DNA from: a virus
Strand: one strand, 5' to 3'
DNA: 24,286 bases
Virus record (IMG/VR): IMGVR_UViG_3300042507_008307
Span: 1-24,286 of that record
A program made the position numbers and the translations under genes. Shown here one piece after another: positions 9,191 to 22,017 of this stretch (its first letter is position 1; every line of letters begins with the position of its first letter). A model generated the notes under the pieces. The model saw nothing but the letters and a program-made list of their open reading frames with translations. It made no database searches and was not told the DNA's origin.

Positions 9191-9573
9191 TAGTAAGTTT
9201 TAGTTATAGTAGATTTTATTTTATTTAATTGAGAAGAAAGTAAATTTATTTCTCCTGTTATTGCTTCTTTTTCATCAGGATTATTAGTTATATCATTCAT
9301 AATACTTAACATTTGTTGTAAAACACTAATAAGCTGATCTGATTTAGGAATTGCTTCCAAAGTTAAAGTAGGGTCTGATTGATATCCTAATTCTATATTT
9401 GGACTATTTAATCTATAGATATTTATAGGATTTTTAGAACCTTGAGGACCTACATTTACAGTAAATGATCCTGCTGTAGACATATTAGTATTTTTAGCTG
9501 ATTGTATTATTACATCATTTATTGATGATGATATATATACTAATTCAGATGATATAAGAATATTATTGTCCAT
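9190..9573 (-). CDS. Small baseplate-operon protein, unknown
   Basis: This 127-aa protein has a beta-like N-terminal half (SSELVYISSSINDVIIQSAK, then GSFTVNVGPQG and INIYRLNSPNIELG) and a helical C-terminal half (QLISVLQQMLSIMNDIT, then INLLSSQLNKIKSTIT). The start lies inside the end of the lysozyme-spike gene (11-base overlap) and the stop overlaps the next ATG as TAATG. The S/G-rich N-terminus with the isoleucine pattern looks like part of the spike or hub, perhaps completing the beta-rich needle region of the neighbouring protein. This is inference from position only. Confidence 0.72.
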   Translation of the reverse strand: MDNNILISSELVYISSSINDVIIQSAKNTNMSTAGSFTVNVGPQGSKNPINIYRLNSPNIELGYQSDPTLTLEAIPKSDQLISVLQQMLSIMNDITNNPDEKEAITGEINLLSSQLNKIKSTITKTY

Positions 9574-14094: not shown

Positions 14095-15384
14095 TTACTT
14101 CAAAATTCCAGCTAAACGTTGGATTCTTTCCATCAAAGCATTATCAGCATCATCTGCTGTTTTGTCTTGACGCATTTGACTAAACTTGCCTTTCAACATA
14201 TTCATTTGATTGGTGTCTACTTTATTGTTAATAACATTAGTAATTAACTTAATAAACTCATCATTACTCAATTTATAAATGTCTTGTAAAAAGTCGTCTC
14301 TTTCTTCAGGTGTAACATTGGCTTCTAGTTTGTTGATTAAGTCAAATAAGTTTTTAGTAATCATTTGACCATAAGCAATGTCAGCAGGTTCATTTTGAAT
14401 TTTATCTACATTAGCAACTACTTTTTCTCCTCTTTCTAAGTCACCAAATCCAAATAAACCTATGATTTCATACATTCCCTTTACAATTTCTAAAATTAAA
14501 ACAGGAAAACAAACAGCTCTTGCTTTAATAATCCATTTTTCTTTTTCAAAATCATAAAATACAGACTCAGCACCTACAGCACTATCTTCCATACCACTTC
14601 CACCACTATTTCCACTACTACCCATTGCAACCATAAAATCAATCATGTCTAAAGCAGCTTGCATTAAATCTTTATATTTGTCTGTAGTTCCTTCTCCACC
14701 AATAATATCAATGTATTCTCGTTTTAAATAAGGAGCTGATATACTAAATGTTGATCCACCTTGAGTAATTGCATTGATTAGTCTTCTTTTTTTCAAATCA
14801 CCTGCTATATCTTGCATCATTTGATCTTCTTCTTCTTGATCTAAATCTTCAATATTTTCTTCTTCAGGGCTATCAGGTTGTAAAGCTTCTTTAACTTGAC
14901 TTTGAGGAACAATTTTAGCGTCAATTTCAATTACATCTTCATTTGATTTCAAATAAGGATAAGCTTCATAAACAACATCATAAGCTAATTGTTCTAATAA
15001 ATCTTCATTTCCCTTTTCTATCTGCATTACCTGCATAGCAAGTTGTTGCATTTGACCCATAACTTGCATTGGGTTTTTACCTTGTATTCTTTGTAAAACT
15101 GAACCTTGTAACGTTTTTAAAGTTTCAGGATCAAAGATTTTTTCATAGTCAACTTCATGTAAACCTTTAGCTAAACTAGCATAACGATCAGCAATTTTTT
15201 TCATTATATTACTAGCTTTAGGAGCAGGTGTTGGACTAGTACTAGGACTAGGAATACTTCTTCTACGAGGTGAAGGAGTTGTTTTAGGAGCACCAGGCAT
15301 TACCTCAGTATCACGTTCACGTTCAGGTGCAGATGGAGCTGGTTGAGCAGGAGCTTCAAGTAATAAATCTTTAAGTTTGATCAT
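14095..15384 (-). CDS. Virion/prohead-associated protein with capsid-targeting-like N-terminus
   Basis: This 429-aa protein begins MIKLKDLLLE and then A, closely resembling T4 internal-protein targeting peptides that the prohead protease removes after E. Residues 11-58 are rich in P, S, R and A and probably disordered. Then comes a helical region with methionine/glutamine-rich MQVMGQMQQLAMQVMQIEKG (about 104-123) and a very acidic stretch (PEEENIEDLDQEEEDQMM). A hydrophobic region follows with AALDMIDFMVAMGSSG, VCFPVLILEIVKGMYEIIGL and FGFGDLERGEK. The C-terminus is LMERIQRLAGILK. I recall this N- and C-terminal style in unnamed proteins of marine phages. Candidate roles are prohead core or internal protein. 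It is followed by a 230-base gap with hairpins. Confidence 0.72.
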   Translation of the reverse strand: MIKLKDLLLEAPAQPAPSAPERERDTEVMPGAPKTTPSPRRRSIPSPSTSPTPAPKASNIMKKIADRYASLAKGLHEVDYEKIFDPETLKTLQGSVLQRIQGKNPMQVMGQMQQLAMQVMQIEKGNEDLLEQLAYDVVYEAYPYLKSNEDVIEIDAKIVPQSQVKEALQPDSPEEENIEDLDQEEEDQMMQDIAGDLKKRRLINAITQGGSTFSISAPYLKREYIDIIGGEGTTDKYKDLMQAALDMIDFMVAMGSSGNSGGSGMEDSAVGAESVFYDFEKEKWIIKARAVCFPVLILEIVKGMYEIIGLFGFGDLERGEKVVANVDKIQNEPADIAYGQMITKNLFDLINKLEANVTPEERDDFLQDIYKLSNDEFIKLITNVINNKVDTNQMNMLKGKFSQMRQDKTADDADNALMERIQRLAGILK

Positions 15385-15402: not shown

Positions 15403-15411
15403 ATAAATATT
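15403..15411 (-). promoter_or_regulatory. AATATTTAT element upstream of the 429-aa gene
   Basis: On the minus strand AATATTTATTG lies 18 bases before the ATG at 15384, leaving room for a short leader with TATATAGTCAACTATT. It overlaps the stop of the upstream membrane-protein gene. This copy is better placed for a real promoter than the near-leaderless ones. Confidence 0.35.
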
Positions 15412-16087
15412 AGTCTTTTACAAGTAACAATTCGTTTTTAGGAATTCCTGTTTTTATAAAATCGTTTACTAATTCTAAACTACTAAAATCTAGATTTAAT
15501 TTGTACTTATCATATATCCAAGCTAAGTTTACTTTAGTAGTTCCTAATATAGGAATAGTTATGTTAAATTTAACTATGGGTTGGTGTGGATATCTTCCTT
15601 CTAAAATTTCATAAGTATCTAAAGTACCTTCATATACTTTATGATCTGTAAAGTCTCCTCCTAACACATAAGAAGAATCAGTTACTATTAAAACAGTTTT
15701 ACTTACTAAACCATCTAAAATTTCTAAAAATTTATCTAAATCAGTTGTGTTAAATAAATCTAAACCTACATTTCTCCAAGTAGAAGTGTTTATTGTGTAA
15801 GTTGATTTAAGTTGTTTTATTTCGTTTTCTAGTTGATTTATTTTATCTAAATTTTCTACTTCTACAATTTTTTCTACTTCGACAATTTTTTCTACTTCAA
15901 TTATCTTTTCAACGGGAACTTCAACAATTATTTCTTTAATTGTTTCTTTTTCGACAGGAATTTCTATTATCTTTTCTTCTTGGATTTGAAAAACATTTTG
16001 ATTATCATTAGAGTAAGGAGAAATATAACCTAAAAGTAAAAAACTAACCAATAAAATTCCTAAACTAACTAAAATTATAGTCCACAT
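15410..16087 (-). CDS. Membrane-anchored protein with V/E/K-repeat stalk
   Basis: This 225-aa protein has one N-terminal membrane helix (WTIILVSLGILLVSFLLLGY, residues 2-21). Residues about 35-80 form a very regular stalk of V/I-E-K repeats (VEKIIEVEKIVEVEKIVEVE), then a coiled coil LENEIKQLKST. The C-terminal domain (about 95-225) is mixed alpha/beta with LFNTTDLDKFLEILDGLVSK, VLIVTDSSYVLGGDF and FNITIPILGTTKVNLAWIYD. The likely topology is the anchor in the inner membrane with the stalk and domain on one side. It is not a recognised spanin, since there is no lipobox partner. It lies between two genes with capsid-targeting-like N-termini. Function unknown. Confidence 0.75.
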   Translation of the reverse strand: MWTIILVSLGILLVSFLLLGYISPYSNDNQNVFQIQEEKIIEIPVEKETIKEIIVEVPVEKIIEVEKIVEVEKIVEVENLDKINQLENEIKQLKSTYTINTSTWRNVGLDLFNTTDLDKFLEILDGLVSKTVLIVTDSSYVLGGDFTDHKVYEGTLDTYEILEGRYPHQPIVKFNITIPILGTTKVNLAWIYDKYKLNLDFSSLELVNDFIKTGIPKNELLLVKD

Positions 16088-16110: not shown

Positions 16111-18972
16111 TTAAGGTTCCTGTATTTTAAATCCTGGTTTTAAAGTATCATTTACACTATCTAAATTATTACTAAATTGTTTTACAATTTCCCAATCTTT
16201 AAGTTTTGGATTGTATTTATATAAATCTAAATAAACATAATCCCATATTCCATGTCTTTTTTCAATTTTATCTATTATGTATTTTTTACTCCAATCCTGC
16301 ATTTTTAAATTGGTAGGATCTAAAGTGTCTCCTACTCCTAATTCAATTATATTCCAATCTTCACTAGGAGTTATATTGAAATCTTCATCGGATTCGTTTA
16401 AGTGACCAGTAAATCTATATTCGGGTTTTAATTTATCATTAAATAAACTAGTTATAACTTGTATAATATTTGGATCATTGTACATCCATCTGTCTTCATC
16501 TCCAGGATTTAAAGTTTCATCTTCTTTACTTAAAACTCTTTTTAATTTTAATGCTGCACCATAATTACCTACTAGTAAATAACGACTAGTTTTTTTAGGA
16601 TCTAACCACATATAAGGTTCAATAATGTCTCCTACTTCTATAGTATTCCATGTTTCATTAGGAGTTACATTAAAGTCTTCATCTGATTCATTTAAAGTAG
16701 ACTCAGGAATTTCTACACTAATGTCCATATCTACTAAATCATAATCTAAATTATTACTTGATGGCTTAAAACCTCTATCAACATCATGCCAAGATTTTTT
16801 TTCTTCTCCATCCATATCAAAAAGTGCTATAACTACTTCACTGTTTTCATTTATCCAATTAGTAATATTTTTAACAGTTATTTCATCGTAATTATAGTTT
16901 TCTCCTGATTCTTCTTGTAATTCAGATACTGATGTTTTTATTAATGTAGTTTCAATTGATATAGCTGACGTATCAGTATTCCAATCTGTAACTTCAAATT
17001 CTTTTGTTATGGTTATGTTTATAGGCGTATCTAAATCTAAATTCCATAATACACTAGGAGTTACATTAAATTCATCGTCTGATTCATCTAATTGTTCAGG
17101 AGCTACATAATCATAAACTACTTCATAACCAGGTTTTAACAATCTATTTACAAAATCAACACTCCAATAACTAGGACCATCACTTACATTATTCCACATT
17201 CCTGAATATTCATTTTTTTCTTGTTTTATTATACCTGCTAATTCTCTTCCTTCAGGATCTTTTCTAAAATATTTTATTTCATATCGAATATTTGGATCAC
17301 CACCTAATCTATTAGTAGAGTCTAAATAACTATTAATTCCTAATTCTTTAACATTCCAATCTTGAGGAGCATCTACAGTAAATTCGTCTTCGTCTTGTTC
17401 TGTTATAAAATCAGAAATATAAGCACCATTTAATGGACCATAATTCTCGTTAAAATAACCAACAGAAAAAGCTAAATATTTTTCATCAGTATAAAAGTCT
17501 TCTCCACTCAATCTTCCAAATAATACTATATTTATATCATCGTTATATTCATGATAATCAAAACGTTTTCTTGTTTCTCCTGCTTTTCCAATAAAGACAA
17601 CTTTAAAAGGATCATCTTGAATTTCACTAGTAACAAATGTGTCTCCTACTTTAAGTTCACGAGGATTCCATTGTTTTTCATTAGGCGTGACGTTGAACTC
17701 GTCTTCTTCACCTTCAGCAAATATATCTACTTGATTGTCTATTGGAACATCAAGTTTATATTTAGGATCTAATGTATCATTATTGAACCATTCAGGAACT
17801 ACTCGATAATGTGAAGATGAGCCATCTTTTGGATTATATAGACGAACACCATACATTCCATTTTTAAAGTCTACAAGTTCATAGTAAGCGTCTTTGTTTT
17901 TACGAAAAAAGTACTTTTTATCTTGAGAACCGTCTCTAAGCATGTCGTAGGTAACTTTATCTCCTACTTGTAAGTAAGTTATATTCCAATCTTCACCAGG
18001 TGTAACATCAAATTCGTCTTCACTCTCATTTATAGAATTAGGATTATATACTTGATGTTCTGGTTTCAAATATTTTTTATTAAGAATATCTATCCAAATC
18101 AACACTGTCTTTCCATTTCCTGAAGTCAGTATTACATTTTCTACGCTATCTATTCCTTCTATATGCCAATTTATTGTTTTATCATCTATTTTATTATTTG
18201 AATCAATATAATTAAGACGATCAATATAATTAAGATTCCACATGTGTGGAGCAATAGTGTCTCCTACTGTCATTTTACCCCATTCTTCATCAGGTGTAAC
18301 GTTGAACTCGTCTTCACTTTCTACTAAATCATTATTTGTAGGTATTTCATATTTTGGATTAAGTAAATTATTAATTGTTTTAACACTAGGACCCCAAGTA
18401 ATTAAACGATCAAATTTAATCCATGGATATTCTTCAAATACTTGAATTGAATTTATAGTTACTCCTTCATCATAAACTTGTTTCCATAAATTAATTAATC
18501 GATTTAATTCTTCATGATCATCACCACTTTTATTATTACACCAATTAATAATTGATTTCCAGTTCCACATTGGACCTATAATAGTGTCACCTACTCCTAG
18601 TTCATGTTGATTCCATTCTTCATTGGGCGTAACGTTAAAGTAATCTTCACTTTCAGTTAAATTATCAGGTGGAAATACTTGGTATTGGGGTTTTAAATCA
18701 TTATTAATATATGGAAGCATCCATCGAGATATTATTTCATATGGGTTTGACGTACCTACAAGTACTTGAATTAAAGAATCATTATCATTGTATGGTTTAA
18801 AATCTAAAATCTCTAATTCAGACTCACCATCCATCCACCAATCTTCATTGTGTTTAAACATGTCAGGAATAATTGTGTCTCCAACTCCTAATTCTTCAAC
18901 ATTCCATTCTTCACTAGGCATAACGTTGAAATCGTCTTCAGATTCTAATATGAGTTTTTTCAAGGTAAACAT
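16111..18972 (-). CDS. Nine-repeat protein, candidate prohead-processed polyprotein
   Basis: This 953-aa protein begins MFTLKKLILE and then SEDDFNV. It contains nine modules of about 93-132 residues. Each opens with (S/G/Q)(E/D)-(D/E)-x-F-(N/D/T)-V and usually TPxExWN, then in most modules an (L)xVGDxI/T motif, and most end with (L)xPxYxV. Directly before modules 2-9 stand LTE (105-107), LVE (216-218), INE (314-316), FAE (418-420), ITE (523-525), LDE (628-630), LNE (760-762) and LNE (858-860). This mimics the E10-S11 junction of the N-terminal peptide. T4 prohead protease gp21 cleaves after E in (L/I)-x-E, so nine small proteins could be released. Module 7 is longest and lacks VGD. The modules are strongly diverged. 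No enzyme motif is recognised; an SH3-like beta fold is a guess. Confidence 0.82.
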   Translation of the reverse strand: MFTLKKLILESEDDFNVMPSEEWNVEELGVGDTIIPDMFKHNEDWWMDGESELEILDFKPYNDNDSLIQVLVGTSNPYEIISRWMLPYINNDLKPQYQVFPPDNLTESEDYFNVTPNEEWNQHELGVGDTIIGPMWNWKSIINWCNNKSGDDHEELNRLINLWKQVYDEGVTINSIQVFEEYPWIKFDRLITWGPSVKTINNLLNPKYEIPTNNDLVESEDEFNVTPDEEWGKMTVGDTIAPHMWNLNYIDRLNYIDSNNKIDDKTINWHIEGIDSVENVILTSGNGKTVLIWIDILNKKYLKPEHQVYNPNSINESEDEFDVTPGEDWNITYLQVGDKVTYDMLRDGSQDKKYFFRKNKDAYYELVDFKNGMYGVRLYNPKDGSSSHYRVVPEWFNNDTLDPKYKLDVPIDNQVDIFAEGEEDEFNVTPNEKQWNPRELKVGDTFVTSEIQDDPFKVVFIGKAGETRKRFDYHEYNDDINIVLFGRLSGEDFYTDEKYLAFSVGYFNENYGPLNGAYISDFITEQDEDEFTVDAPQDWNVKELGINSYLDSTNRLGGDPNIRYEIKYFRKDPEGRELAGIIKQEKNEYSGMWNNVSDGPSYWSVDFVNRLLKPGYEVVYDYVAPEQLDESDDEFNVTPSVLWNLDLDTPINITITKEFEVTDWNTDTSAISIETTLIKTSVSELQEESGENYNYDEITVKNITNWINENSEVVIALFDMDGEEKKSWHDVDRGFKPSSNNLDYDLVDMDISVEIPESTLNESDEDFNVTPNETWNTIEVGDIIEPYMWLDPKKTSRYLLVGNYGAALKLKRVLSKEDETLNPGDEDRWMYNDPNIIQVITSLFNDKLKPEYRFTGHLNESDEDFNITPSEDWNIIELGVGDTLDPTNLKMQDWSKKYIIDKIEKRHGIWDYVYLDLYKYNPKLKDWEIVKQFSNNLDSVNDTLKPGFKIQEP

Positions 18973-18978
18973 GTGTCG

Positions 18979-18987
18979 ATAAATATT
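18979..18987 (-). promoter_or_regulatory. AATATTTAT element upstream of the 953-aa gene
   Basis: On the minus strand AATATTTATCGACAC runs straight into the ATG at 18972. It lies in the 144-base divergent intergenic region, at the head of the whole minus-strand late block. A purine-rich GGAGAATGAAGGG lies just upstream but is too far from the ATG to act as its ribosome binding site. Confidence 0.38.
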
Positions 18988-19016
18988 AAATTCCCTTCAT
19001 TCTCCTACTTTACTAT

Positions 19017-19069: not shown

Positions 19070-19101
19070 TTGACGTTCTTTGACATATTAACTATATTTA
19101 T
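19070..19101 (+). promoter_or_regulatory. Promoter candidate for the plus-strand gene pair, with ATATTTAT core
   Basis: TTGACG at 19070-19075 is followed after 17 bases by TATATT at 19093-19098, which overlaps an ATATTTAT core at 19094-19101. The predicted transcript start near 19105 gives a leader of about 12 bases before the ATG at 19117. It is the only ATATTTAT copy here with a recognisable -35-like hexamer at normal spacing, so this pair could be read by both host-type and late polymerase. Confidence 0.4.
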
Positions 19102-19116
19102 AGTCAAACTAAAACT

Positions 19117-19620
19117 ATGGATAACTTTAATTTAAAGCAATACTTGGTAGAAAATAAGCTTACTTACCAAGAGAAAATGAAAGACAAGGCTAAATCAATG
19201 AAAGAAGCTGAAGCTACTAGTAAGCCAAAAGAACAAGAAAAAGGCCATCAAGCTCCCAAAGACAAGTCAAAGCAAGGTCCTTCAACCATGAACGAAGCAG
19301 AAGGTAAAGTAAAAATTAATTTTGTTAAAAAAGCTGAATTCAATGACATCAACGATAAGTACGACACGAAAAAAGGAGGAAAAATAAGTGATGAAGAAGA
19401 ATTGATTATGGATGCTGGAACTTGGAACAGTGAAGGTTTTTTTGCAAAGAAATACGAGTCATTAGAAGACTTTGCTAAGTTTGTTGAAAAAACATATGGT
19501 GGAAATCACAAACGTCATTTGAGTGATTTAATGAAAATGAAAAGTAAAGGCATCATTAAAGTTGAAACTAACGAGTCTATTTCATTGAACGAAGGAAAAG
19601 TATTCTTTGGCGGATATTAA
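19117..19620 (+). CDS. Small lysine-rich protein with capsid-targeting-like N-terminus
   Basis: This 167-aa protein starts MDNFNLKQYLVE and then N, the same pattern as the next gene's MDTFDLKKFLVE-N. Residues about 17-65 are lysine/glutamate-rich and low in complexity (KEAEATSKPKEQEKGHQAPK), probably disordered. The C-terminal half looks folded, with KINFVKKAEFNDINDKYDTK and DFAKFVEKTYGGNHKRHLSD, and ends SLNEGKVFFGGY, which contains another L-x-E. Basic, processed internal head proteins of T4 are the analogy. Packaging inside the capsid is an inference. It is transcribed opposite to the 953-aa gene from a shared 144-base region. Confidence 0.75.
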   Translation: MDNFNLKQYLVENKLTYQEKMKDKAKSMKEAEATSKPKEQEKGHQAPKDKSKQGPSTMNEAEGKVKINFVKKAEFNDINDKYDTKKGGKISDEEELIMDAGTWNSEGFFAKKYESLEDFAKFVEKTYGGNHKRHLSDLMKMKSKGIIKVETNESISLNEGKVFFGGY

Positions 19621-19631
19621 TTCAAAATTAC

Positions 19632-19901
19632 ATGGACACCTTTGACTTAAAAAAATTCTTAGTTGAAAATAAAATTACTTTAAATAGTAAATTGACTGAG
19701 AATAACAAACAACCTAAAGTAGGTGATAAAGTAGATGTGCGAAACCCTAAAGGCAAGTACAGTAAAGAATCATGGTGGGGACCTGATGAGTATTTATATA
19801 ATGCTGACGTTATCAAGGTTAACGGTCCAAAAATCACTGTTAAAGACATTAATGATGATGAATATGAGGTTGATGTTTATGATGTAGATGTGCTAGTATA
19901 A
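19632..19901 (+). CDS. Small protein with capsid-targeting-like N-terminus and SH3-like motif
   Basis: This 89-aa protein has an N-terminus of MDTFDLKKFLVE followed by NKITLNSKLTE-N, so there are two candidate (L)-x-E cleavage sites at E12 and about E23. The rest resembles a small beta-barrel: KVGDKVDVRNPKGKYSKE, then NADVIKVNGPKITVKDINDD and a DV-rich end. The VGDKV element recalls the VGDTI motif in the modules of the 953-aa protein, so a distant common fold is possible. It starts 12 bases after the previous stop and is followed by a strong terminator at 19934. Confidence 0.75.
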   Translation: MDTFDLKKFLVENKITLNSKLTENNKQPKVGDKVDVRNPKGKYSKESWWGPDEYLYNADVIKVNGPKITVKDINDDEYEVDVYDVDVLV

Positions 19902-19964: not shown

Positions 19965-20144
19965 CACATATGGTTTAGTGAATTTAGTTTTTTAATCGAT
20001 AGTATTAAACGAGATTCCACGAATTTCGAGTGTATATATTTTGTGTCTCAAAGCAAAAGTCGCCCGTTGGGTTTGATTTGCGAATTGTGGATTTTGGTCG
20101 AAATGGACAAGTCGGAAAATTAGTTTCAATTGTGGGGTAGATTT

Positions 20145-20178
20145 GTATATACAAGGCGCGGCGGGCGAAAAGTGTTCG
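20145..20178 (+). repeat. 34-base direct repeat, copy 1
   Basis: It starts with the palindrome GTATATAC and continues CAAGGCGCGGCGGGCG. It differs from copy 2 (60 bases downstream) at four positions, all of them transitions. It is strikingly GC-rich for this genome. Confidence 0.75.
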
Positions 20179-20204
20179 TTTGGTTTAAATTGATTGGTAT
20201 AGAG

Positions 20205-20238
20205 GTATATACAAAGCGCGGCGGGTGAAAGGTATTCG
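20205..20238 (+). repeat. 34-base direct repeat, copy 2
   Basis: It starts GTATATACAAAGCGCG and continues GCGGGTGAAAGG. It matches copy 1 at 30 of 34 positions. The 60-base offset between the copies would place both on a similar DNA face if the helical repeat is about 10 bases. Confidence 0.75.
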
Positions 20239-20310
20239 GAGTCGTGCTTTTCATCAACAACCTACGCACCACCAGCCGCGCATCGATTGACAGCGGTTCG
20301 CCGTGGGTAT

Positions 20311-20349
20311 GCTAGCGGTTTGATAGCATTATGCTATCGGTCCGATAGC
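20311..20349. repeat. Two tandem 17-base palindromic sites, 22 bases apart
   Basis: Unit 1 (20311-20327) reads GCTAGCGGTTTGATAGC. Unit 2 (20333-20349) reads GCTATCGGTCCGATAGC, a perfect 8+1+8 palindrome. The same layout appears twice at about two helical turns, the usual arrangement of a dimeric regulator's tandem operators. The half-site GATAGC/GCTATC also pairs across units, so a cruciform or RNA hairpin is an alternative. Confidence 0.65.
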
Positions 20350-20360
20350 GTGCTAAGAAC

Positions 20361-20388
20361 AAAAAAAGCTCCCTTTTCAAGGAGCTCT
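20361..20388 (-). terminator. Terminator of the 104-aa AT-hook-like gene
   Basis: On the minus strand a 6-bp stem AGCTCC/GGAGCT with an 8-base loop is followed by TTTTTTT. It lies about 20 bases after the stop at 20407. Confidence 0.85.
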
Positions 20389-20406
20389 TAATGTGGTACT
20401 ATAGCG

Positions 20407-20721
20407 TTAGTCTTTTTTAACTTTTGGACGACCTAATTTCAATGTACCACTAGCACGCTTTTCAGCTAACATTTGCATGCGTTGTTGTCTTGGTGAATTT
20501 GGATCAACAGGCCTACCACGCTTACCGGTTAACAGCCCAGCTCCAGCGAGTTCACTCCTACGCTCTAGCTTCATTTGGTTCTTTGAACCTTCAACTACCG
20601 GACGACCACGTTTGATTACAACACCACTTGCTTTTAGTTCAGCTTTAGCTTTCAGTTGCTGTTGACGAACTGAGTTAGGATTAGTTGGGCGACCGAGTTT
20701 CTTAGTTTCTTGATTTTTCAT
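20407..20721 (-). CDS. AT-hook-like protein with four GRP repeats, paralog 1
   Basis: This 104-aa basic protein has four GRP cores at residues 10-12, 39-41, 69-71 and 97-99, in KKLGRPTNPNS, IKRGRPVVEGS, GKRGRPVDPNS and LKLGRPKVKKD. KRGRP is the AT-hook core that inserts into the minor groove of AT-rich DNA. Between hooks are short basic helices such as VRQQQLKAKAELKASG. It is a close paralog of the 114-aa protein at 21308-21652. The frame extends up to an ATG at 20757, but that codon lies inside the -10 box of the shared promoter type. The ATG at 20721 also matches the paralog's start, so I chose it. Probable role: phage nucleoid-associated or regulatory protein. Confidence 0.8.
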   Translation of the reverse strand: MKNQETKKLGRPTNPNSVRQQQLKAKAELKASGVVIKRGRPVVEGSKNQMKLERRSELAGAGLLTGKRGRPVDPNSPRQQRMQMLAEKRASGTLKLGRPKVKKD

Positions 20722-20752
20722 ATGTTTTATTATCTTATTTATTTTATACTGT

Positions 20753-20780
20753 ACCATACGTTGAACCTTGTATAGTGCAA
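20753..20780 (-). promoter_or_regulatory. Promoter, paralog-1 gene (TTGCAC-N16-TATGGT)
   Basis: On the minus strand CTTTTTTGCAC is followed after 16 bases by TATGGT, one base off the TATAGT of the other three copies. The predicted start near 20746 gives a leader of about 25 bases to the ATG at 20721. Confidence 0.65.
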
Positions 20781-20800
20781 AAAAGATCTCGTGAGATTGT

Positions 20801-21203
20801 ACTGCCTTATTCTCGGGACCAGCTTGTAAAACACTGCCTTCCTCTCGAGGGCCAGCTTATAAAATACTGCCTTGCTCTCGAGGGGCTCCTCTAAAAATAC
20901 TGCCTGCTTTCGAGGGGGCCACTCGAGCACACTGCCTGATCTCGAGGGTGTCCTTTAGGAATATTGCCTAGTCTTTGAATCTGAATCAAAAAACATTGCC
21001 TTCCTCTCGAGAGCCAGCTTGTAAAGCACTGCCTTACTTTTCGGGGGCAATCTGAAAAATATTGCCTGGGCTCTGAGGTGTCCTTTTAGAGTACTGCCTG
21101 GGCTCGAGAGTGTCCTCTTGGAATACTGCCTTACTTTTGAGGGGCACTCTGTAAAACACTGACTTGCTCTCGGACCTGAAATGTAAAATATTGCCTTATA
21201 AAT
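20801..21203. repeat. Array of 13 degenerate repeats with 32/33-base period
   Basis: Units start at 20801, 20833, 20866, 20899, 20931, 20963, 20995, 21028, 21061, 21093, 21125, 21158 and 21190; every step is 32 or 33 bases. Each begins A(C/T)TGCCT (unit 12 has ACTGACT). Most continue with a CTCGAGG-like block at about +12 and end in an A-rich GTAAAAC/T. The rest of each unit varies. The period is about three helical turns. The array lies between the terminator of paralog 2 and the promoter of paralog 1 and encodes no plausible protein. Confidence 0.85.
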
Positions 21204-21212
21204 TAATACACT

Positions 21213-21251
21213 GTGGTGAGGAATCCTACAGGAATCAAGTTAACAGGAATC
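21213..21251 (-). repeat. GATTCCTGT triplet, locus A
   Basis: Three GGAATC sites on the plus strand start at 21220, 21231 and 21246 (spacing 11 and 15), preceded by GTGGTGA. On the minus strand each of the last two reads GATTCCTGT. It lies immediately upstream, in the minus-strand sense, of the 13-unit array. Confidence 0.75.
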
Positions 21252-21261
21252 CTAGTATAGA

Positions 21262-21290
21262 CAAAAAAAGCGATCTCACGATCGCTTTAA
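21262..21290 (-). terminator. Terminator of the 114-aa AT-hook-like gene
   Basis: On the minus strand the perfect 6-bp stem AGCGAT/ATCGCT closes a 6-base loop and is followed by TTTTTTT. It lies 18 bases beyond the stop at 21308. Confidence 0.88.
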
Positions 21291-21307
21291 TTTAACTAAC
21301 TAACTTA

Positions 21308-21652
21308 TTAGTCTTTATTTTGTTTAGGTCTACCTAATTTCAATGTACCGTTAGCTCGTTTTTCACTTAACATTTTCATTCGCTGTTGACGAGGTGAATT
21401 AGGATTAACAGGCCTACCTCGTTTACCAGTAGCTACACCTGCTGCTACTAATTCAAATCGACGATTTAACTTTTGTTGATTTTTGCTGCCTTCAATTACA
21501 GGCCTACCTCGCTTAATTTCAACACCACTTGCTTTTAATGCTTCTTTTTCTGCTAGTCGTTTCTGTCTTTCACTGTTAACATTTACAGGACGACCTAATT
21601 TCTTAGCTTCAACAACAACAACTTCTTCTGATTTTACGATTTGCTTTTTCAT
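21308..21652 (-). CDS. AT-hook-like protein with four GRP repeats, paralog 2
   Basis: This 114-aa protein has GRP cores at 20-22, 49-51, 79-81 and 107-109, about 29 residues apart. Flanks are as in paralog 1 (KKLGRPVNVNS, IKRGRPVIEGS, GKRGRPVNPNS, LKLGRPKQNKD). It has an extra N-terminal segment with VVVVEAKK. The RGRP cores with P-N-S-x-R-Q followers suggest DNA binding with several contacts per chain. Promoter, leader, terminator and upstream repeat modules are all parallel to those of paralog 1, so the gene was duplicated together with its control region. Possible roles are compaction of AT-rich phage DNA, or a regulator acting at the nearby arrays; the sequence cannot decide. Confidence 0.82.
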   Translation of the reverse strand: MKKQIVKSEEVVVVEAKKLGRPVNVNSERQKRLAEKEALKASGVEIKRGRPVIEGSKNQQKLNRRFELVAAGVATGKRGRPVNPNSPRQQRMKMLSEKRANGTLKLGRPKQNKD

Positions 21653-21682
21653 ATCTTTTATTTCTTATTTATTTTATGCTGT

Positions 21683-21710
21683 ACTATACGTCGAAGATTT
21701 TATCTTGCAA
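21683..21710 (-). promoter_or_regulatory. Promoter, paralog-2 gene (TTGCAA-N16-TATAGT)
   Basis: On the minus strand CTTTTTTGCAA is followed after 16 bases by TATAGT. The predicted start near 21676 leaves a leader of about 24 bases. The leader sequence aligns with that of paralog 1. Confidence 0.7.
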
Positions 21711-21750
21711 AAAAGACTTTCAAAACTTTTTAAAGGTCAAGATTTAAAAC

Positions 21751-21790
21751 ACTGCCTTTCTTTTGAATGTCAGATTTAAAACACTGCATC
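21751..21790. repeat. Short ACTGCC array, two units
   Basis: ACTGCC at 21751 and ACTGC at 21783 are 32 bases apart, each preceded by TTTAAAAC, as in the 13-unit array. A possible third, decayed unit lies at about 21719. It has the same position relative to its gene as the larger array. Confidence 0.65.
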
Positions 21791-21799
21791 GTCACACGA

Positions 21800-21838
21800 T
21801 GGTAAGGAATCAAGCAGGAATCAGTTTTACAGGAATCA
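21800..21838 (-). repeat. GATTCCTGT triplet, locus B
   Basis: GGAATC on the plus strand starts at 21806, 21817 and 21832, again 11 and 15 bases apart, preceded by ATGGTAA. It lies between the tRNA terminator and the two-unit array. Confidence 0.75.
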
Positions 21839-21845
21839 GTTTAAA

Positions 21846-21872
21846 CAAAGAAAGCGACCTTGTGGGTCGCCT
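21846..21872 (-). terminator. Terminator downstream of the tRNA
   Basis: On the minus strand the perfect 6-bp stem GCGACC/GGTCGC closes a 5-base loop and is followed by TTTCTTTG. It ends the tRNA transcript about 30 bases past the CCA end. Confidence 0.85.
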
Positions 21873-21901
21873 TCCTTGATAATAAAATGAAAAATCAAAA
21901 C

Positions 21902-21983
21902 TGGTTGTCAGGACAGGATTCGAACCTGTAAACTTCCCCTTCCACTTAAGGGAGGGGTCGCGTGTGCCTTCCGCCACCTGACT
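21902..21983 (-). tRNA. tRNA-Leu(UAA), atypical anticodon arm
   Basis: On the minus strand an acceptor strand AGTCAGG pairs with CCTGACA at 6 of 7 positions (terminal A-A mismatch). A D-arm GCG/CGC follows, then the T-arm ACAGG-TTCGAAT-CCTGT, a discriminator A and an encoded CCA. The anticodon loop CTTAAGT gives UAA with U33 and G37, hence leucine, decoding UUA. The stem around it is unusual: CCCCTCC against GGAAGGGG forms 7 bp with one bulged A, instead of 5 bp plus a long class II variable arm. Genes in this window use TTA heavily for leucine, which fits the supply of this tRNA. Function is likely but not certain. Confidence 0.75.
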
Positions 21984-21988
21984 GTTTT

Positions 21989-22017
21989 TTTTATCATTCA
22001 ACTATTTGGAGTGTCAA
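21989..22017 (-). promoter_or_regulatory. Promoter candidate for the tRNA
   Basis: On the minus strand TTGACA (22012-22017) is followed after about 17-18 bases by an AT-only TAAAAA stretch just before the tRNA. The -35 box is perfect and the -10 is weak. It differs from the TTGCAA promoters of neighbouring genes. Confidence 0.4.

Follow-up and report, generated by a model that had tools for sequence, protein, structure and literature searches.

Genes at the locus and module architecture

The window analysed here, positions 1 to 24,286 of IMG/VR record IMGVR_UViG_3300042507_008307, is a 24.3-kb viral contig fragment without head genes, whose T4-like features include a baseplate wedge protein of the gp6 kind with a relative in Flavobacterium phage immuto, a gp25-like neighbour and a sigma-factor-like protein. 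On the minus strand, an open reading frame at 16111-18972 encodes from its ATG start a protein of 953 residues with nine modules, which has syntenic orthologues in the phages L003, L006, L007, L008/L009, L010 and L011. On the same strand lie a conserved syntenic neighbour of 429 residues (A2; 14095-15384), a candidate co-packaged protease substrate that begins with MIKLKDLLLE↓A (here and below, ↓ follows the E of a site), and, between the two genes, a small membrane-anchored protein (15410-16087) that is syntenic in L006, L007 and L010.

Hydrophobic-x-E sites in the 953-residue protein end at residues 10, 107, 218, 316, 420, 525, 630, 762 and 860 and delimit predicted fragments of 97, 111, 98, 104, 105, 105, 132, 98 and 93 residues. 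The original prediction for this locus, a polyprotein cut by the prohead protease into nine small proteins, had given these positions and lengths exactly to the residue. The chain opens with a capsid-targeting-like N terminus of ten residues, MFTLKKLILE (18943-18972, minus strand), which contains the first L-x-E site (I-L-E10↓S11) and is similar to that of T4 IPII and IPIII. It is followed on the same strand by module 1 (residues 11-107; 18652-18942; ending L-T-E107), module 2 (108-218; 18319-18651; L-V-E218), module 3 (219-316; 18025-18318; I-N-E316), module 4 (317-420; 17713-18024; F-A-E420), module 5 (421-525; 17398-17712; I-T-E525), module 6 (526-630; 17083-17397; L-D-E630), module 7 (631-762; 16687-17082; L-N-E762), module 8 (763-860; 16393-16686; L-N-E860) and module 9 (861-953; 16114-16392). 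The F-A-E at residue 420 is the only one of the nine sites that is not strict [LI]xE. Six further strict [LI]xE motifs occur elsewhere in the protein. By the module limits, only two of them, at 687 and 709 in module 7, fall inside a body; two (757 and 952) belong to a linker or the C terminus, and two (785 and 877) are found close to where a module body begins.

Clustering of module bodies across the phages, with singletons assigned by eye, distinguished type A (about 53 modules), type B (10) and a helical type C (3-4), plus a lysine-rich insert in L008. All window modules except module 7, which is type B and has a different fold, are type A; module 2 was a clustering singleton and was placed there by its motif, module 5 is a long variant with counterparts in L006 (module 8), L007 (module 3), L010 (module 1) and L011a (module 3), and module 6, the counterpart of L007 module 9, carries an NVDAP-style tag. 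The nine-module layout was confirmed, with eight modules sharing one diverged fold family and module 7 belonging to another, whereas the suggestion that each module has its own job was overstated, most modules being paralogues with one small fold in common.

AlphaFold2 predicted folded cores for module 3 (type A) and module 7 (type B), both with pLDDT of about 90, separated from low-confidence, linker-like junctions (about 63-74 at the L-x-E flanks of module 3 and below 50 at the flanks of module 7), in favour of the original prediction, although confidence also falls at the ends of truncated constructs. Predicted secondary structure differs between the two types, and an hhalign comparison of their profiles aligned only a 26-residue tag; at least three unrelated folds carry a tag of the same kind. 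Neither the protein nor its modules gave a significant hit in Pfam or PHROG, and no peptidase domain was matched in the window protein in these scans. Structure searches gave no match at E < 0.001; type A resembled SH3, Tudor and FeoA folds only weakly and type B showed no resemblance, and a function was therefore not assigned by fold. Several folds occur in one chain and none matches a known domain; by Pfam, PHROG and PDB search the modules are new protein families.

Relatives of the polyprotein

Direct searches of IMG/VR and INPHARED with the whole protein yielded no match, T4 included, and none was found in the GTDB genomes searched. Relatives were reached via module profiles and the conserved neighbour gene (14095-15384). 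They are uncultivated phages with a related polyprotein at the same place, comprising 1537 residues and 15 modules in L006, 1308 residues and 12 modules in L007, 1560 residues and 15 modules in L003, and 862 residues and five modules in L008/L009; the L010 protein is partial and close to that of L006, and L011 has two polyprotein genes (567 and 335 residues; five and three modules). Module number (3-15), order and content differ among these phages, and the neighbour protein is 70-79% identical. The isolated relatives immuto and Mel-JY01 possess the protease, and the modules were not found in them. Kinship with Flavobacterium phages suggests, as a guess, that the hosts belong to the Bacteroidota.

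Two local irregularities were observed. The near-identical contigs L002 and L003 differ at about 9259-9326, where an in-frame TAG, either a nonsense variant or a sequencing error, splits the 1560-residue polyprotein in L002 and a W is encoded in L003. In L008 (404-2992), some 250 residues of module 4 form a repetitive, lysine-rich coil (YAKYLEK-KQYREKNPEKIKQ) inside the polyprotein, located after the type A body and past LDE/LNE.

Putative cut-site motif and targeting sequence, and the protease

The junctions were compared in 68 modules from nine orthologous or partial proteins. All 68 carry [LIVMF]xE within 2-8 residues before the aromatic residue of the start motif, a count that overstates the number of trials since homologous repeats are not independent, though their tag sequences are very different. 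In a 7-residue window the same motif precedes 12.8% of control positions, and of 164 further acidic-aromatic spots 44 have it; the placement of a site before each module is not chance. Around the site, P3 has low entropy (1.36 bits) compared with P4 (3.61 bits) and P2 (3.08 bits), the P1 glutamate being fixed by how the search was built, and the commonest P1' residue is S. Judged by residue usage, a fixed P3 and P1 with a free P2 is the gp21 consensus. Within module bodies [LI]xE is mildly depleted (56 found versus 76.4 ± 7.5 in shuffles). One check proposed with the original prediction was whether the junctions are the most conserved positions. In a 53-module alignment just five columns reach 90% conservation, and the E of L-x-E is among them; none of the 68 modules keeps the module start while losing L-x-E.

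The start motif itself varies between phages, being FNVTP in the window, F[NTS]V[DE]AP in L003, L006 and L007, FEFTDTDKELA in L008 and FELGDEDLELAK in L011. L-x-E is kept across these tag replacements (NVTP, NVDAP, EFTDTDKELA, ELGDEDLELAK) and across changes in spacing, and because it outlasts both it is hard to hold that it was merely inherited with the repeat. We infer that the chain is cut at its junctions.

The ten-residue N terminus MFTLKKLILE↓S, with I8 and E10, matches MKTYQEFIAE↓A of T4 IPII and IPIII in length and in the placement of P3 and P1 at positions 8 and 10, in agreement with the T4-like targeting sequence proposed originally; in the T4 IPIII targeting sequence, these two positions are reportedly the ones on which processing depends (PMC9026906). 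The L008 orthologue starts ...KTYQMFLNE↓S, and genes with such ten-residue starts are enriched in the near-complete relatives G001 (10 versus 0.3 expected) and G003 (4 versus 0.28).

Tandem repeats with conserved linkers are common, and conservation of an acidic-F-x-V tag need not imply cutting, so that the L-x-E tag could be only a repeated linker or binding motif in a chain that works whole, like beads on a string, in the head or elsewhere. We regard such an uncut chain as rather unlikely, given that L-x-E survives four different tags at changing distances, that P3 and P1 are fixed while P2 is free, and that the first L-x-E coincides with the canonical cut site of a targeting sequence.

Processing of the chain would depend on a prohead protease, which was sought in relatives because the window fragment lacks head genes. 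A gp21-type protease is present in both near-complete relatives (PF03420, E = 4e-32 in G001 and 6e-34 in G003), is homologous to T4 gp21 (5jbl, E = 3.6e-17) with the SRG-GS motif kept, and is clustered with gp23-, portal- and terminase-like genes. The major capsid protein of G001 is gp23-like (phrog_138, E = 2e-70), and the alignment of mature gp23* to it begins at T60, directly after ..KELIVE59; the T4 gp23 maturation site is FLTE↓A. The prohead protease of the group presumably has [LI]-x-E specificity.

Tags, bodies and exchange of modules

Tags and bodies follow different patterns of similarity. Tag identity is 64% within a phage versus 37% between phages, whereas body identity is 23% versus 22%; 48 of 68 tags, but only 14 of 68 bodies (12 expected), have their nearest neighbour within the same phage. 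For window tag pairs with the same amino acid, codons are identical at a rate of 0.61 versus 0.65 expected from codon usage, which excludes recent DNA conversion as the cause of tag homogeneity in the window. As synonymous codons are randomised in the tags of the window, it is at the protein level that selection maintains the tag, in a phage-specific form. Codon identity is 0.71 versus 0.63 expected in L003 and 0.96 versus 0.72 in L011b, the latter from few sites, and the tags of these two may include some recent duplication. We read the phage-specific tag as an adaptation to a putative phage-specific partner.

The body of window module 4 is 76% identical to that of L007 module 10, and both carry the NVTP tag, whereas the rest of L007 has NVDAP-type tags. 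In L041 (1314-2462), a single type A cassette with L-x-E on both sides is located in a 382-residue protein beside the large terminase; the G003 orthologue of this protein has 66 residues and the same N terminus (63% identity over 32 residues) without the module. With one module common to two phages and one standing alone in a head-cluster protein, the modules move as units. The L041 cassette also bears on the notion of a tail- or baseplate-associated repeat protein, for which the gp25- and gp6-like baseplate genes downstream on the same strand could speak. We consider this highly improbable, since the cassette occurs in the head cluster, the N terminus of the window protein is capsid-targeting-like and no trimeric-fibre or Ig-like features were seen; in addition, proximity to baseplate genes is also seen in T4-like phages for Alt-type ADP-ribosyltransferases, which are packaged in the head (PMC5512222).

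Comparison with known head-packaged proteins

T4-like phages load single internal proteins by means of a targeting sequence and one cut. Like the window protein, T4 IPI, IPII, IPIII and Alt have a ten-residue targeting sequence ending in hydrophobic-x-E, a gp21-type protease and small variable cargo. However, each of these T4 genes provides one cargo, from which an N-terminal propeptide is cut, whereas here one targeting sequence precedes 3-15 units with a site before each. No homology to IPI, IPII, IPIII or Alt was found in phage-record, Pfam and PHROG searches, and we would therefore say that the window polyprotein works like the T4 internal proteins rather than that it is a member of them.

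T4 gp22, gp67 and gp68 are likewise head proteins that gp21 cuts many times, and they are degraded to small peptides (PMC9958956). By analogy, the window protein might be a sacrificial core or scaffold component that is packed into the prohead core and cut, with pieces that exit the head or have a role only in assembly. In favour of this, all nine window modules carry a net negative charge, which makes the chain strongly acidic, and the neighbour of the gene encodes another protein with a targeting sequence. The idea appears quite unlikely to us. Folded domains of some 100 residues are predicted as pieces, and these represent three or more fold types and have conserved counterparts across phages, which better suits cargo; moreover, phages differ in module content and have anywhere from 3 to 15 modules, whereas a scaffold candidate sits in the head cluster. 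The propeptides of the giant phages SPN3US, phiKZ and 201phi2-1 also combine several protease sites in one head protein; there, however, the cuts remove or shred the propeptide, whereas here they would part repeated folded units. Polyvalent proteins (Iyer et al. 2017, PMC5512222) are similar in being long multidomain cargo, predicted to be packaged in the head and subject to domain shuffling. Unlike the window protein, they contain known effector domains and in some cases embedded peptidases, neither of which was found here, where prohead-protease sites are present at every joint.

We found no description in the open-access literature of a phage protein with this layout, tandem units each preceded by a prohead-protease site, in keeping with what the original prediction had stated. 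T4-style targeting, gp21 cutting and multidomain head-packaged proteins are known already; the tandem polyprotein form appears to be new.

Proposed mechanism and implications

Established at the sequence level are the architecture, the fixed cut motif, the protease of the relatives, the independence of tag and body and the exchange of modules, and on our reading the gene product is probably a cargo polyprotein that is targeted to the head and processed by the prohead protease. The cargo reading of the original prediction held up in the sequence-level tests, though not its picture of nine unrelated proteins, there being one small fold and one other. We infer the following course of events. The single chain would be docked in the prohead core by MFTLKKLILE, like a T4 capsid-targeting sequence, and once the prohead is complete the gp21-type protease would cut the flexible linkers after the E of each hydrophobic-x-E, which would set free nine folded units, each about 93-132 residues long. 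The units would stay with the DNA in the head, each starting with the same acidic tag, S-[DE]-[DE]-[DE]-F-N-V-T-P, a possible recognition element for a phage-specific partner. Together with the DNA they would then pass into the host, in the manner of T4 internal proteins, plausibly to act against host defences; this post-delivery function is a guess from the T4 internal proteins, which are described as diverse defence proteins with only the targeting sequence in common (PMC3012670). Counting against a cargo polyprotein are the six [LI]xE motifs outside junctions, two of them inside module 7, the F-A-E junction outside strict [LI]xE, the lack of head genes in the window record and the absence of a recognisable function for any module in our searches.

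More tentatively, the locus may represent a cassette cargo system, in which each interchangeable unit joins a payload domain to a protease site and an address tag, the latter being particular to the phage and matched to a partner there. Units would be traded between phages and head proteins, and a changeable set of up to 15 proteins would be delivered from one gene. If true, the polyprotein form would let many proteins be loaded in equimolar amounts through a single signal, and would amount to a naturally diversified collection of cargo released by a protease. A phage-specific tag kept at the protein level leads to the testable prediction of a head partner, and units delimited by L-x-E offer a search handle for further head-delivered proteins. 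The modules are candidates for delivered anti-defence proteins.

Other features of the locus

The neighbour protein (14095-15384) and its orthologues have a second conserved L-x-E at residues 75-77, with H, S or N as the middle residue, so that two cuts in the protein are conceivable; the N-terminal site is absent from the called L008 orthologue. On the plus strand, two small genes at 19117-19620 and 19632-19901 encode products that start with MDNFNLKQYLVENK and MDTFDLKKFLVENK, similar to the start of an L011 polyprotein, MKNNFDIKKFLIENK, and are candidate single-cargo head proteins. The product of 19117-19620 ends in SLNE↓GKVFFGGY and its L007 counterpart in SLNE↓SKIFFGGY.

T4-type late promoter motifs (TATAAATA) were found 12 times versus 8.0 ± 2.5 expected, which is not clearly above chance, and the copy at 19095-19102 was therefore dropped as promoter evidence. 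A ATATTTAT(CGAC) element, possibly regulatory, is located just before the polyprotein start at 18973-19000 and also upstream of position 1232 in L007 and 6064 in L011; in the latter two phages a palindrome lies upstream of it. The region 20001-22000 has a GC content of 41%, compared with 26-32% elsewhere, and contains a tRNA-Leu (21902-21983) together with two minus-strand genes (20407-20757 and 21308-21652) for paralogous small basic proteins with GRPxNPNSxRQ repeats, the GRP cores of which are AT-hook-like; L011 has two more such genes.
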